Assembly (NCBI GenBank): GCA_024280435.1
Contig: JAJRQD010000216.1
Location: 1-43,847, forward strand
DNA length: 43,847 nucleotides
DNA from: an archaeon
GTDB lineage: Archaea > Asgardarchaeota > Heimdallarchaeia > Heimdallarchaeales > Kariarchaeaceae
Reading direction: 5' to 3'
A program made the translations under genes and the position numbers. The notes under the pieces are model-generated. The model did no database searches. It was not told the origin of the DNA and was given only the letters and a program-made list of their open reading frames with translations. Below are positions 9,492-15,900 of the stretch, piece after piece (the stretch's first letter is position 1; each line of letters starts with the position of its first letter).

Positions 9492-11222
9492 TTGAGGCAC
9501 GTTATTCTTGGAGCTAATTCATTTGTTGGTACTTTTGTACTGAAATTGTTAGTAACTATCGGAGAGGGCATAAAAATTATAGCTGTCTCTCCAACAGGTA
9601 AAATTGATGATGAAATTATTCGGGACAATATTGTTATCAAGACTGGCGATATACTGAATTTAAAGGATTTATATGATGTTTTTGAGAAGGATGATATAAT
9701 TTATAATACTCAGGTAATATTTGATGAAACACATGATATTACAGAAGTAGAGCTTGTAAACTATGCAGGCCTCATTAATATACTTGGTATTGCTAGAATA
9801 ACCGGTGTAAGTAGAATTGTATCAGTACTACCACAATTTGAGGGATCTGATGAATTTAACACTGAATTTCATAAAATAACCAGGAAAACAACTAGGATTA
9901 TAGAAAATTATTTTGCAAGAAAAGAATTTGGATGGTCATCCAAAGCGATCAGGGTCTGGGCAAAAAAAAATATTACTGAATTCAAAATCCCGATTGAATT
10001 CTATGATGATGAATTTGAGGATATTGAGGAGGAAAGTGTGCAGGATACTACTTCTGGACCTCAAGGACCCAAACTAAGTGGACCTCAAGCACCCAATTCT
10101 GAGGGACCCAAACTAAGTGGACCTCAAGCACCCAATTCTGAGGGACCCAAACTAAGTGGACCTCAAGCACCCAATTCTGAGGGACCCAAACTAAGTGGAC
10201 CTCAAGCACCAGATTCTGAGGGACCAATGGCAACTTCAGGGCCTATTCCTCCAAAAAAAGATATAATAATTAGTAATAATCAAGAGAAAGATGAAATAAT
10301 TGAGGAGAATAAATCGGACAATGTAGATAATAAAAATGAAGCACATGAAGATAATAAAAATGAAGCACATGAAGACAATACAGATGAAGCACATGAAGAT
10401 AATAAAAATGGAGCACATGAAGACAATAAAAATGAAGCACATGAAGATAATAAAAATGAAGCACATGAAGATAATAAAAATGAAGCACATGAAGACAATA
10501 CAGATGAAGAGGAAATTACAAAAACAGATGATGAGATAGCATTGGATAAATTTTGGGAAAGACAAAACAAAGAAACTGAGAGAAGGAAGAGAACTAAACT
10601 AAAACTGGAGGAAGAAGCTAAAAAACAGGCTAAAATAAGAGAGAAAGAGAGAAAAATCAAAAAAGAACTGCGAAGAAGAGAATTACCAAAGGCAAAATTA
10701 GCAGTTGCACGACTTGGAAGAATATTTGGATCATACGATCATACAATCACTGTTGAGTACTGCGATGCTGTGAGAAGAGGTAAACTTACAGTTAATGGAG
10801 AGATTAATAAACAAATTTCATGGATCACTCCAATTGATATTGGACGTGCATTGATAATTCTTGGAGATAAAACAGTGCCCACTGGTGAGTATAACATGAA
10901 TTCATTCATTGCATCCCCATTGGAGATCATTAAACAACTGGATAAACAGAACCATTCAAAGACTTTAATTACACATCTGGACATTAAAAAAGAATTATGG
11001 AGGGTAAAAATAAATAATCTGCTGGCAGGATTTGGTATCGGGAAAATGAAAGAAACTGTATCTCTGTTCAAATACAATGTAGAACAGATATTTCCAGATA
11101 CAGAGGCAAGAAATAGATGGAAATGGTATCCAAGATATGATTTTCAAAAAGCAATAGAAGATGCATTTCTGTGGTATATTGAGGTCATGGTACCGATAAT
11201 ATACAATATAGAGATAAAATAG
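9492..11222 (+). CDS. SDR/NAD-dependent epimerase-like protein split by a large tandem-repeat, coiled-coil insert
   Basis: The first about 165 residues form a Rossmann NAD(P)-binding half of the extended SDR/NmrA type: HVILGANSFVGTF is the glycine motif, and HKITRKTTRIIENYF matches the helix that normally carries YxxxK, with the Tyr replaced. The C-terminal half (from about residue 400) resumes with LAVARLGRIFG, the strand preceding the substrate domain, and ITPIDIGRALIIL. Between them are about 230 residues that do not belong: a Gly/Pro-rich 13-residue repeat (residues 192-243), an acidic EAHEDNKN octad repeat (283-338) and a highly charged coiled coil (about 345-398). The start is TTG at 9492: an in-frame TAA at 9486-9488 rules out anything upstream, and the Rossmann strand begins at once. 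Because the catalytic Tyr is not visible, it may be a binding or scaffold protein rather than an enzyme (inference). Confidence 0.75.
   Translation: MRHVILGANSFVGTFVLKLLVTIGEGIKIIAVSPTGKIDDEIIRDNIVIKTGDILNLKDLYDVFEKDDIIYNTQVIFDETHDITEVELVNYAGLINILGIARITGVSRIVSVLPQFEGSDEFNTEFHKITRKTTRIIENYFARKEFGWSSKAIRVWAKKNITEFKIPIEFYDDEFEDIEEESVQDTTSGPQGPKLSGPQAPNSEGPKLSGPQAPNSEGPKLSGPQAPNSEGPKLSGPQAPDSEGPMATSGPIPPKKDIIISNNQEKDEIIEENKSDNVDNKNEAHEDNKNEAHEDNTDEAHEDNKNGAHEDNKNEAHEDNKNEAHEDNKNEAHEDNTDEEEITKTDDEIALDKFWERQNKETERRKRTKLKLEEEAKKQAKIREKERKIKKELRRRELPKAKLAVARLGRIFGSYDHTITVEYCDAVRRGKLTVNGEINKQISWITPIDIGRALIILGDKTVPTGEYNMNSFIASPLEIIKQLDKQNHSKTLITHLDIKKELWRVKINNLLAGFGIGKMKETVSLFKYNVEQIFPDTEARNRWKWYPRYDFQKAIEDAFLWYIEVMVPIIYNIEIK
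10065..10220 (+). repeat. 39-bp tandem repeat, four copies, inside the SDR-like gene
   Basis: Units begin at 10065, 10104, 10143 and 10182 with ggacccaaactaagtggacc and encode the 13-mer GPKLSGPQAPNSE. The copies are almost identical; the last differs at agattctgag. Near-identity at DNA level points to recent expansion by slippage or unequal recombination. Length is a whole number of codons, so copy changes keep the frame. Confidence 0.95.
10338..10505 (+). repeat. 24-bp tandem repeat, seven copies, inside the SDR-like gene
   Basis: Units of gaagcacatgaagataat plus aaaaat repeat at 24-bp steps from 10338 and encode EAHEDNKN, with EAHEDNTD variants where the unit reads gacaatacagat. The variants recur in a pattern (positions 2 and 7), which suggests blocks were copied together. 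The lack of stop codons in other frames creates several false ORFs here. Confidence 0.95.
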
Positions 11223-11228
11223 TTCAAA

Positions 11229-11816
11229 TTAATAACCCTGTAATTTCCTGGCTCTGATTGGTAACCAGTCATTTATTTTATTAACCAACTTTGTAAATGC
11301 ACTTTCAATATTTAATCCAGTCAGCACGGAAGTCTCAAGATACTCAACAATGAAATCGCCCTCATATTTCTCATTGAGCCCTTCAACAAAATCCTGTATC
11401 TCTTTGTTTGTAGCACATTGATTCATCTCTAGTGGAGCAAGATCTTTCTTGTTTCCAAGTAAAATTACTGGTATACCTTCTGTTTTTGTTGATTTCTCAA
11501 TCTCTTTGACCCATTGTGATAGGTCATCAAAACTCTCTCTTCTTGCTAGATCAAATACCAGTATCACACCATGAGCACCTTGATAATAAACATCTCTCAC
11601 AGTCTCAAATTTTGCCTCACCTGCAATATCCCAAATTAATAACTGATATGCTATATTATCAAGCTCTATCAATTTTAGTGAAAAGTCAGCACCAACAGTG
11701 GCAGTATACTTTCTTTTCATCCTCTGCCCCATGTAATGTCTTCTAAGACTTGTCTTCCCTGTACCAAATGATCCCACAAGAATTAACTTAAGAACGATCT
11801 TGGTATTTTCATCCAT
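11229..11816 (-). CDS. Ras/Rab-like small GTPase with Gln61-to-Glu change
   Basis: This is a 195-residue cytosolic GTP switch protein. All G boxes are visible, numbered from ATG 11816: P-loop GSFGTGKT (15-22), switch I Thr in YTATVG (Thr40), DIAG (63-66), NKKD (122-125) and ETS (161-163). The residue after DxxG, normally the catalytic Gln (Gln61 of Ras), is Glu67. The C-terminus RARKLQGY has no cysteine, so no prenylation signal. The track starts at 11876, but the Rossmann-like domain begins right after MDENTKIVLK, and a TATA-like ataaatatta lies 25-34 bp before 11816, favouring the shorter form. It follows the GAF-PAS-longin-like gene on the same strand after 108 bp, suggesting a functional pair. 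Expanded Ras-like GTPases are a known Asgard trait. Confidence 0.92.
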   Translation of the reverse strand: MDENTKIVLKLILVGSFGTGKTSLRRHYMGQRMKRKYTATVGADFSLKLIELDNIAYQLLIWDIAGEAKFETVRDVYYQGAHGVILVFDLARRESFDDLSQWVKEIEKSTKTEGIPVILLGNKKDLAPLEMNQCATNKEIQDFVEGLNEKYEGDFIVEYLETSVLTGLNIESAFTKLVNKINDWLPIRARKLQGY

Positions 11817-11840
11817 AATTTTTACTTTAATAATGAACAA

Positions 11841-11850
11841 ATAAATATTA
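11841..11850 (-). promoter_or_regulatory. TATA-like box of the small GTPase gene
   Basis: The plus strand reads ataaatatta, 25-34 bp upstream of ATG 11816 on the minus strand. This is the usual archaeal TATA position for a leaderless transcript and supports the start at 11816 rather than 11876. Confidence 0.45.
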
Positions 11851-11924
11851 TGCGTATAAAATGAAATAAGAGACAATGTTAATAAAAATGTTATAGAATA
11901 ATTTGTATATAAAAAATTATAATT

Positions 11925-13415
11925 CTAGGTGATAGTATGAGTGCCTAACAGCATGGTAGTGATATGCCTGAGATAATCAAGTGATTCATGAATCAGCGTG
12001 ATAGTCGAGAAATTTCTATCCCCATGATATTCAGTTGTGACAAAATCAGCCTCATCTTCATTAATTATAGAGATATAATCATTCATAGCCCCCATAAGTG
12101 AGCCGGATAAACTCTGTAACAATGCAGGTATTGCATTTATCAGAAACTGTTTGACCACAATTCCAACTAGATGTATCTCTATCTTACCTCTTGCCTCCTC
12201 ATTACTGATTGTGAAGGCAATCCAATGCAATTTACCCTGGGGAATAGACCAGGGAGTAGTGCCTGTGATGTACATCTGTTTCATCAACTGATCAATATTC
12301 AAACCTGCCATTAATTTGATAATCTCCTGGAAAATCTCATTCTTATCTGTGTTTGGAGATGACGAGATCAGAATAGGCCCACTCTCCTCATTCACTGCCA
12401 TAGCATATGCAGATGGGAAAAATGCAGATCTGAATTTATCAATTGCTATTTCCTGATTAAGAGTGAACATTCTTTTGAATTCATCTATCTGTGGTAAAAT
12501 ATAACTCTCCTGTGTTGTATTTGATCTAGTCTCAGTATCATTTATAGGTCTACCAGAGATTATGAATCTTACCTCATTATAATCTGATAGAATTTTTATA
12601 ATACTACATTGCAGTACCAATTCCTCAAAATCCTCGATTTTAATTGTAAATATCTCAACATCCACAATCTCATTGAATTCTATTGATTTTACAACTGAGT
12701 AGAATGTATCAATATTTGTCTGATTCACCAGTAAAGAAGTAAAATTTAGTTCTGTATTGACAAGTTTCTTACCGATATAGTTCATCATTCTATTATTAAT
12801 ATCCTGTATGAAATAATGATTATCAAGAACTAGTATATACTCATATGCATTAAGATAGTAATCCTTCCTGGATAATGCTTCTTCTTGTTTACGTGATTTG
12901 GTATAGGCAGCCTGAAATGTTAGAACCATCAATTCAGATAATGTATGCACATCTGCAATAAATTGGGGCGATAAAGTTATATTTTGTGAATAATATAGAT
13001 TAATTGATGCCAGACTTGCATCTGTTCCTAGAATAGGTACTGATAAAAATGATTTGATACCCAATTCCTTGGCAGAAGTTGAAGTACGCTCATCTGTTAT
13101 ATCATTGATTGAGAAAACATATTGATAATTTGTATCAAGAATTGTAGATGATCTCTTTGCAGTGATAATATTAAGATTATAACAGTAATCAATTGGTATT
13201 CTGTAAGAAGTCTGGTATCTGTTCTCCTTGAATGCTTGATTTTCAAATAAAAAGGAAATATATGAATAATCTGCCTTGAACATCTCTGTAAGATTTGCCA
13301 ATAATGTTGAGAAAATATCATCTATATGTTTATAATTTCCTCCCATTGATAATCCTGTCAATTTACCAAGAAAATCCATCAATTCTTTTTTTGCAGGAAT
13401 ATTTTCGCCATTCAA
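11925..13415 (-). CDS. GAF-PAS sensor protein with a longin-like C-terminal domain
   Basis: A 496-residue soluble protein without membrane helices. Residues about 20-175 look like a GAF domain (FSTLLANLTEMFKADYSYISF, IKSFLSVPIL). Residues about 185-290 look like a PAS domain starting YYLNAYEYILVLDNHYFIQ. The last 180 residues have no kinase or phosphatase motif; they show the alternating strands and helices of a longin or roadblock-like fold (GPILISSSP, LHWIAFTISNEEARGKIEIH, a long amphipathic C-terminal helix). Such folds regulate small GTPases in archaea, bacteria (MglB) and eukaryotes. The gene directly precedes the Ras-like GTPase on the same strand, so a sensor that tunes GTPase state is a reasonable inference. 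A TATA-like ttatatataatt lies 23-34 bp before the ATG. GAF/PAS assignment is moderate; longin-like is tentative. Confidence 0.65.
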   Translation of the reverse strand: MNGENIPAKKELMDFLGKLTGLSMGGNYKHIDDIFSTLLANLTEMFKADYSYISFLFENQAFKENRYQTSYRIPIDYCYNLNIITAKRSSTILDTNYQYVFSINDITDERTSTSAKELGIKSFLSVPILGTDASLASINLYYSQNITLSPQFIADVHTLSELMVLTFQAAYTKSRKQEEALSRKDYYLNAYEYILVLDNHYFIQDINNRMMNYIGKKLVNTELNFTSLLVNQTNIDTFYSVVKSIEFNEIVDVEIFTIKIEDFEELVLQCSIIKILSDYNEVRFIISGRPINDTETRSNTTQESYILPQIDEFKRMFTLNQEIAIDKFRSAFFPSAYAMAVNEESGPILISSSPNTDKNEIFQEIIKLMAGLNIDQLMKQMYITGTTPWSIPQGKLHWIAFTISNEEARGKIEIHLVGIVVKQFLINAIPALLQSLSGSLMGAMNDYISIINEDEADFVTTEYHGDRNFSTITLIHESLDYLRHITTMLLGTHTIT

Positions 13416-14224: not shown

Positions 14225-14454
14225 ATCTATTGTATTGATAGCATAAAAAGTTCTAATTCTTCAATATTTTTGATATACAAAAATTCACTGTATACTGATA
14301 CTTTAATTCATCAAAATAATCAAATTTCAGAGGGATCAAATACATTTTCAGAATCATCTTCCAAGAATACATATAAATTAATTTTACTGTGTTTCTAGTA
14401 ATTAGATATTGCCAATTCCTCAGTATTTTTAATAAATCAATATATATTACAACT

Positions 14455-15900
14455 ATGTCAGTTGATGAGATTGAACTTCTATCTGTGGGCCTTGACGTTG
14501 GCTCATCCACATCACATCTTGTATTTTCCAATTTATTACTAAGAAAAGACCCTCACAGTTCTTCAAGAAAATTTGAGGTTGTGGAGAGAGATATAATTTA
14601 TGAGGGTGAAATTATTGATACACCATTACTAGATAAGAATACAATAGATGTTGATACTCTGGTCAGATTTTTCAAGGAAGAATACAAAAAAGCAGGTATT
14701 GATGATCCAGAGAGGGTAAATACAGGGGCTGTGATAGTTACAGGAGAGACTGCAAAGAAAAGCAATGCAGCACAAATCGTTGAGATGTTATCAAATGATA
14801 CAGGAAAATTTATTGCAGCCACAGCAGGCCCTAATTTTGAATCCATGCTTGCAGCTCAGGGTTCTGGTGCAACAAATCGATCAAAAGAGAGGATGAACAC
14901 AGTATTGAGCTGTGATATTGGTGGAGGCACTTCAAACATGGCAATCTCTAGGAACGGAAGCGTGATTTCAACTGGCTGTATTAATGTTGGGGGAAGATTA
15001 CTTGCATTCGAGGAAGATGGAAAGATATGGAGAATTGATGAACCTGCACAGATAATTATGGAGGAATTTGGGATGAACTATCAGTTAGGTGATATTATTC
15101 CAGTTGAGGACATTAGAAAAATAGCTGCCAAATTTGCTGAGATACTAGTTGAGGTATTAATTGGACCAACGCACAGTAAGCTTGCAAAGCTGTTCATGAT
15201 GACTGGAGATCTTGATTTTGCACTTGATATAGATGAGATTATGTTTTCAGGAGGAGTTGGCGAGCTGATGTATGGTAAAAATGAACAATCATACAGAGAT
15301 ATTGGATTGATACTGGCAGAGGAAATTAATAAATTACAGCATAAGTTAAAAGGAAAGATAATAGAACCAGAGAACAAGATCAGAGCAACTGTAATCGGCG
15401 CGGGTGCCTATTCATTATCAATCTCCGGCTCTACTTGTTATTTTGATGAGAGTATTGAGTTCCCATTGAGAAATATACCTGTTTTACATGTAAATGCTAT
15501 CAGAGAGAAACTAAGTATCGAGCATATGAAAGCTGAGGTTGCAAAGGCATTCAAAAGATTTGATATTGAAGAGGGTACTGAGGTTGTTGCACTGTATTTC
15601 AAAGACCCTGTCAGAGTTGCATATGATAAGCTTAAATTATTTGCACAATCAATTGAGGCATCAATGCCAAACTCGGTCAAAGATAATAAGCCAATAATAC
15701 TGATTTTTGAGAAGGATGTTGGAAATTCAATAGGTAATGTGATCAGACGAGAGAGTGAGATAAAAGATAATCTGATGGCATTGGATGAGCTATTCCTGGA
15801 AGATGGAGATTTTATTGATGTGGGTGCACCACTAGTATCTGGGGAAGTATTTCCAATCACTGTGAAGAGCCTTGTATTCAACAAAAATATCAGAGATTAG
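14455..15900 (+). CDS. eutA: EutA-family ethanolamine ammonia-lyase reactivating factor
   Basis: EutA is an ATP-dependent chaperone-like protein of the actin/HSP70 fold that removes damaged cobalamin from ethanolamine ammonia-lyase (EutBC) so that fresh adenosylcobalamin can bind. The N-terminal phosphate loop is GLDVGSSTSHLVFSNL, followed by TGAVIVTGETAKK and ATAGPNFES, then the second loop CDIGGGTSNMA and INVGGRLL, all hallmark blocks of the family in order. The usual length (about 480 residues) is reached from ATG 14455 (481 residues); the track's 14389 start adds an unrelated 22-residue tail. TATA-like ttttaataaat lies about 18-29 bp upstream of 14455. The odd feature is context: no eutB, eutC, transporter or cobalamin gene is within the window, so its client must be elsewhere or different. 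Confidence 0.9.
   Translation: MSVDEIELLSVGLDVGSSTSHLVFSNLLLRKDPHSSSRKFEVVERDIIYEGEIIDTPLLDKNTIDVDTLVRFFKEEYKKAGIDDPERVNTGAVIVTGETAKKSNAAQIVEMLSNDTGKFIAATAGPNFESMLAAQGSGATNRSKERMNTVLSCDIGGGTSNMAISRNGSVISTGCINVGGRLLAFEEDGKIWRIDEPAQIIMEEFGMNYQLGDIIPVEDIRKIAAKFAEILVEVLIGPTHSKLAKLFMMTGDLDFALDIDEIMFSGGVGELMYGKNEQSYRDIGLILAEEINKLQHKLKGKIIEPENKIRATVIGAGAYSLSISGSTCYFDESIEFPLRNIPVLHVNAIREKLSIEHMKAEVAKAFKRFDIEEGTEVVALYFKDPVRVAYDKLKLFAQSIEASMPNSVKDNKPIILIFEKDVGNSIGNVIRRESEIKDNLMALDELFLEDGDFIDVGAPLVSGEVFPITVKSLVFNKNIRD

Follow-up and report, generated by a model that had tools for sequence, protein, structure and literature searches.

In humans, the longin-type GTPase-activating proteins (GAPs) FLCN, SMCR8, and NPRL2 are central to nutrient signalling and disease, and tumour-suppressor complexes use an arginine of the longin to turn small GTPases off. 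The known longin GAPs mostly work as longin-DENN heterodimers. The catalytic or proposed catalytic residues of the eukaryotic longin GAPs are Arg164 in FLCN, Arg147 in SMCR8, and Arg78 in NPRL2 (PMC7464330, PMC8213707). In a 2026 preprint, the arginine finger of monomeric DENN GAPs is located between β4 and β5 (PMC12803157). Fusions of longin and roadblock domains to GTPases have already been published from Lokiarchaeota and MK-D1 (PMC4917890, PMC10933270). According to the latter source, a GTPase of MK-D1 and its regulator do not, as a rule, share an operon, and the matching of Asgard GTPases to regulators is called difficult because the two are rarely in operons.

The locus described here lies in a window (the whole stretch of DNA that was analysed, 43,847 nucleotides) from the genome assembly of a Heimdall-group Asgard archaeon (4.03 Mb in 342 contigs). 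A gene for a protein with sensory domains and a longin domain, hereafter the sensor, is followed downstream by the gene of a small GTPase:

11925..13415, minus strand: sensor GAF-PAS-longin, 496 residues, TTG start
12936..13325, minus strand: GAF domain, residues 31-160 (Pfam PF01590, E=1.9e-5)
12546..12860, minus strand: PAS-like domain, about residues 186-290 (Pfam PAS matches in the ortholog of genome G002)
11928..12428, minus strand: predicted longin output domain, about residues 330-496 (AF2, Foldseek, family alignments)
12375..12380, minus strand: Gly346-Pro347 in the β1-β2 hairpin, invariant in 34 Asgard longins
12189..12191, minus strand: Arg409 in the β4-β5 loop, candidate arginine finger (AF2 and alignments)
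11817..11924, minus strand: intergenic gap between sensor and GTPase, 108 bp, AT-rich
11229..11816, minus strand: Ras/Rab-like small GTPase, 195 residues, ATG start (Pfam Ras, E=8.8e-39)
11766..11768, minus strand: Phe17 of the GTPase, at the position of Ras Gly12; aromatic in 7/7 sensor-linked GTPases
11616..11618, minus strand: Glu67 of the GTPase, at the position of Ras Gln61; Glu in 7/7 sensor-linked GTPases

These coordinates agree with the earlier note, which had reported two same-strand neighbours 108 bp apart. An in-frame ATG at 13379, 12 codons inside the TTG start, is an alternative start of the sensor. The plus strand of the window carries an NAD(P)-binding-like protein (9492-11222), interrupted by the simple repeats SGPQAPNSEGPKL and NEAHEDNK, and a strong match to EutA, the ethanolamine ammonia-lyase reactivating factor (14389-15900, 477 bits).

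The output end of the sensor had been described as longin/roadblock-like. In the AF2 model, based on a 20-sequence alignment, the last approximately 165 residues have pLDDT values mostly above 90, and the order β1-β2-α1-β3-β4-β5-α2-α3 is that of a longin. A roadblock/MglB domain has an N-terminal helix before β1 and one C-terminal helix. The sensor domain ends in two helices (residues 432-454 and 469-495), and Foldseek places it closest to 8yqg, which is the longin part of a Roadblock-Longin protein from Lokiarchaeota (target TM-score 0.67); a roadblock/MglB identity was rejected on these two grounds. As modelled, the domain is a longin and not a roadblock, so that only the longin half of the description stands, and folding did not yield a domain unrelated to both. 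The window longin had no match in Pfam, and a contig scan across genomes with it found no relatives; a second contig scan gave only three related records. Neither of two longin profiles recovered any longin GAP among PDB sequences, the matches being mostly helical and coiled-coil noise. The sensor ends after the longin, and a DENN domain is absent.

On the input side, the GAF domain scores 25.6 bits against PF01590, above the curated cut-off of 22.4, and is also detected in sensor orthologs. It resembles phytochrome GAF domains in Foldseek, the input part matching bacteriophytochromes. The earlier note had proposed both GAF and PAS domains; the GAF assignment holds, whereas PAS was matched by Pfam mainly in the G002 ortholog, weakly and at the same place (PAS_9, 1.9e-4; PAS, 7.2e-4), and not in the window sensor itself. 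The PAS region follows a long linker helix (residues 150-190) and was modelled poorly by AF2 (pLDDT about 40-50). No HisKA/HATPase or other output domain was found in the sensor with Pfam and NCBIfam, in agreement with the claim that it lacks a kinase or other known output. A kinase or cyclase as the output was ruled out by the same family scans.

The full-length sensor was found in seven genomes of the order. The GTPase gene directly follows it on the same strand in 4/4 family-level genomes (G000, G001, G002, and G003), as expected if the pair is conserved side by side, and the flanking genes differ where they are readable. The GTPase gene adjoins the sensor gene divergently in G011, lies about 3 kb away in G013, and is on another, short contig in G010. 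With about 47 Ras-family matches in roughly 3,600 genes, the chance that the next gene encodes a Ras-family GTPase is about 1%; the four cases of adjacency are not independent, the genomes being of shared ancestry. A GTPase subclass with Phe, Tyr, or Trp at position 12 and Glu at position 61 (Ras numbering) is present in 7/7 sensor-bearing genomes. It was absent among the best-scoring GTPases of nine sampled relatives without the sensor, which are incomplete genomes, so that absence is not proof; the only Glu61 case among the other GTPases, in sensor-less G005, has no aromatic residue at position 12. The Fisher value for the co-occurrence is 1e-9, which overstates the association because the trait arose once on the tree.

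Searching its own genome with the sensor gave four further loci, each through the longin. Three encode fusions of an N-terminal Ras-like GTPase to a C-terminal longin (L006:3769-4899, L007:1-1035, and L007:1114-2175), and the fourth protein has a different N-terminal domain and no GTPase. More GTPase-longin fusions were found in relatives (L014, L018, L019, L020, L022, L026, and L027). The fusion at L006:3769-4899 has Gln61, Pro12, and the longin arginine. In the structure model of a fusion (per-domain pLDDT 90.7, pTM 0.64), only Rab/Ras proteins appeared among the best 50 matches listed. The sensor longins are nested in the clade of fused longins in the longin tree (support 98/91), their union into a single group being weakly supported (77/47). 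In the tree of the GTPases, those linked to a sensor are united in one clade (86/82), whose sister group is made up of the fusion G domains (85/89). From the two trees we conclude that both members of the pair come from the same GTPase-longin lineage; whether fusion or split came first is not settled.

Since the same genome encodes proteins in which homologs of the sensor longin are joined to Ras-like GTPases, the link between sensor and GTPase is not due to chance. Judging from sequence comparison and without a co-folded complex, we consider it highly probable that the two proteins are coupled physically and functionally. The proposal of a regulator wired to a GTPase is thus supported by the fusions, the adjacency, and the co-occurrence; ligand sensing and action on the GTPase are inferred. 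It is very improbable, in our estimation, that the adjacency has other causes and that the sensor longin has a different GTPase or a different partner as its target. The about 47 Ras-family matches do provide other possible partners, and the GTPase gene is displaced in G010 and G013, but against this reading stand the adjacency of the genes among flanks that differ, the agreement of the two phylogenies, the fusions that occur naturally, and the co-occurrence in 7/7 genomes.

What the longin may do to the GTPase is suggested by one residue. Arg409 sits between strands 394-404 and 412-421 of the AF2 model and is kept in 7/7 sensors. Together with Gly346 and Pro347, it is the sole invariant residue (sensor numbering) across 34 diverse Asgard longins with 27% mean identity; the set leaves out three related fused longins without the arginine, and the invariance holds for that selection. 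The Gly-Pro of β1-β2 is common to the sensor longin and the eukaryotic longin GAPs (HGP, VGP, and LGP). The arginine contexts on PDB chains are SLARGF in FLCN, LEARGF in SMCR8, and YSRNAL in NPRL2, and that of the sensor is NEEARGKIEI. Arg409 thus occupies the position of the catalytic arginine in longin GAPs; the match is one of position, and catalysis is inferred from it.

A blind Pfam scan of the 34 Asgard longins with 24,736 families gave matches to Folliculin in 8/34 (best 6.1e-6), to C9orf72-like in two, and to Afi1 in one, and no family beyond these recurred. One full protein, L049 of genome G037, was above the curated Folliculin cut-off. In hhalign, the Asgard longin profile did not score above shuffled controls with single FLCN, NPRL2, and C9orf72 sequences and was marginal with a single SMCR8 sequence (20.7 vs a shuffle maximum of 19.1). 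Homology of the Asgard longins to the eukaryotic GAPs therefore appears likely and is unproven; for the window longin, it would be indirect, through its relatives.

Several other longin proteins were observed in the course of the comparison. The arginine is lost in the tandem fusions L007:1-1035 and L007:1114-2175 (contig C148 of the same genome), where Glu and Gly are found, and is replaced with Met in L026:3-434, a truncated first gene 17 bp before the arginine-bearing L026:452-1561. The arginine-less tandem fusions are reminiscent of the FLCN-FNIP and SMCR8-C9orf72 pairs, in which one partner is non-catalytic. The protein L049:622-1905 (428 residues) has an N-terminal longin of the GP...ARG type and a C-terminal half that is DENN-like by eye; with a Folliculin score of 25.2 bits (cut-off 23.3) and a weak C9orf72-like match (0.0065), it is a candidate archaeal Folliculin relative by sequence. 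In L044:1471-2925 and L048:1450-2880, an ARG longin is fused to a Rag-type GTPase and a further C-terminal region (for L044, Gtr1_RagA 8.1e-25 and Folliculin 8.7e-5 in Pfam). FLCN is a Rag GAP, and these two proteins are possibly Rag GTPases with a built-in GAP domain. A longin of the GP...ARG type also stands at the C-terminus, or close to it, in very long frames (L046, L047, L050, L051, and L056), one of 8,821 residues and some with weak Ig-like matches; a domain resembling a GTPase regulator is thus found on giant and possibly surface-located proteins. In four relatives, genes that share an N-terminal sequence type are located no more than a few kb from the sensor (L059:7929-8909, L060:2571-3560, L063:5196-6191, and L064:9021-10040), that of L060 encoding a Peptidase_M24 (methionine aminopeptidase-like) protein. 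Further longin proteins begin with a domain that is PAS-like or of another kind, which by eye resembles GAF (L066:6860-7837, L006:585-1577, L074:722-1828, L075:302-1420, and L071:5526-6572); no small GTPase was found beside other GAF-longin or PAS-longin genes. In this lineage, sensors may use the ARG longin as a general output module.

The partner GTPase, whose nearest solved chains are those of Rab1 (PDB), has the motifs GSFGTGKT (G1), DIAGE (G3), NKKD (G4), and ETSV (G5). It had been called a complete Ras-like GTPase, and G1, G3, NKxD, and TSx are indeed present, but the residues at Ras positions 12 and 61 are Phe and Glu. Changes at these two positions of Ras usually impair GAP-stimulated hydrolysis. 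The equivalent of the catalytic Gln61 is missing from the partner, as it is from all seven sensor-linked GTPases. Among 84 other GTPases examined, Glu61 was found in one and an aromatic residue at position 12 in none, and Gln61 is present in 72/74 other GTPases and 10/10 fusions. The G domains of the fused relatives retain Gln61 and have Gly, Pro, or Ala at position 12, indicating that the change of the active site belongs to the sensor pair. Arf1 and RagC, which are substrates of known longin GAPs, likewise lack Gly at position 12. The intrinsic GTP hydrolysis rate of Ras Q61E has been reported to be raised (PMC2987813) and, in conflict with this, to be reduced (PMC6813200). The sensor pair has either a co-adapted active site with regulator-dependent hydrolysis or a long-lived GTP state that is read by the longin. 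We favour the former because the arginine is kept in all seven sensors.

If the latter were true, the sensor would be an effector: the GTPase would be mostly GTP-bound, and its GTP form would dock on the longin and control or localise the GAF-PAS protein without a GAP step. The alteration of both catalytic hot-spots in 7/7 GTPases speaks for this, and GTPases fused to related longins, with Q61 and G/P/A at position 12, do not share it. On the other hand, a mere docking domain would have no need of Arg409, and the lack of Gly12 in Arf1 and RagC has not kept them from being substrates of longin GAPs. We regard an effector role as unlikely. As a further alternative, the longin could be an exchange factor (GEF), as Mon1-Ccz1 and TRAPP are through their longin platforms, and load the GTPase upon ligand binding. 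GEF function is common among platforms of the longin and roadblock type (PMC10933270), and for a GTPase with altered hydrolysis nucleotide exchange would be the easiest point of regulation. This seems quite improbable to us, given that the most conserved residue is an arginine at the GAP position and that the likeness in Pfam is to Folliculin and C9orf72-like, which are GAP subunits, and not to Mon1, Ccz1, or TRAPP.

Our best reading, held with no more than even confidence and without a GAP assay, is a ligand-gated longin GAP acting on the adjoining GTPase, that is, a one-component switch free of phosphorylation. A small molecule or some other cue would bind to the GAF and PAS domains, and the long helix (residues 150-190) would relay the change to the C-terminal longin. 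The longin would bind the Ras-like GTPase encoded next door, a step strongly supported by comparison, and may offer Arg409 to the nucleotide of the GTPase, as FLCN, SMCR8, and NPRL2 do, completing the active site. The GTP state would then be ended in a ligand-dependent manner. The pair shares its lineage of origin with the one-piece GTPase-longin proteins of these archaea, the sensor version being made of two genes with the sensory domains on the regulator. The arginine-finger direction itself is inferred, with neither a GAP assay nor a co-fold, and the case for it is evenly balanced. The partner lacks Gln61 and has an aromatic residue at position 12, which leaves room for a role of the sensor as effector or for chemistry of another kind. 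In addition, a DENN domain is absent from the sensor, the arginine has been lost from three related fused longins, and the window longin has no Pfam match. Beyond what the earlier note had described, then, the sensor has the arginine of the FLCN/SMCR8/NPRL2-type longin GAPs, and the unusual active site of its partner complicates a simple GAP cycle.

In the open-access literature searched (subscription journals were outside the scope), no description was found of Asgard longins that form a family bearing the GAP arginine, or of a sensor of the GAF-PAS-longin type encoded next to its GTPase, and no arginine-finger family was found in the accessible part of PMC10933270. Asgard genomes encode dozens of small GTPases. 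One of them can here be assigned a named regulator that has a sensory input and a residue predicted to be catalytic, and two proteins and a single point mutant would be enough to test how Asgard GTPases are controlled. Should the arginine prove to be a true finger, GAPs of the FLCN/SMCR8/NPRL2 type would have archaeal roots. We tentatively propose, with somewhat more doubt than belief, that the Asgard GP...ARG longins are ancient true arginine-finger GAPs and the source of FLCN, SMCR8, and NPRL2, wired in cis to Ras/Rag GTPases and here to GAF-PAS sensors; metabolite-gated control by longin GAPs, as in mTORC1 nutrient sensing, would then be older than eukaryotes.

The pair shares features with four known systems. 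Bacterial MglA-MglB likewise combines a small Ras-like GTPase with a regulator of the roadblock/longin class, but MglB, a roadblock protein, lacks a sensory part and serves as GAP/GEF in cell polarity. GAF/PAS one- and two-component sensors have the same kind of input with a long linking helix, whereas the output of the sensor is a longin and not a kinase, cyclase, or DNA-binding domain. The GTPase-longin and GTPase-roadblock fusions of Loki and MK-D1 represent the same kind of domain combination, and the sensor longin falls within the GTPase-fused lineage; the sensor pair differs in being split into two adjoining genes and in having sensory domains on the regulator. With FLCN (R164), SMCR8 (R147), NPRL2 (R78), and DENN GAPs such as Avl9, the sensor has in common a longin fold wired to small GTPases, the Gly-Pro of β1-β2, and the β4-β5 arginine, which lies in ARG in FLCN and SMCR8 and in SRN in NPRL2. 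In contrast to these GAPs, the sensor is prokaryotic, has neither a DENN domain nor a known longin partner, and carries GAF-PAS, and its partner is a Rab/Ras-like GTPase with Glu61.
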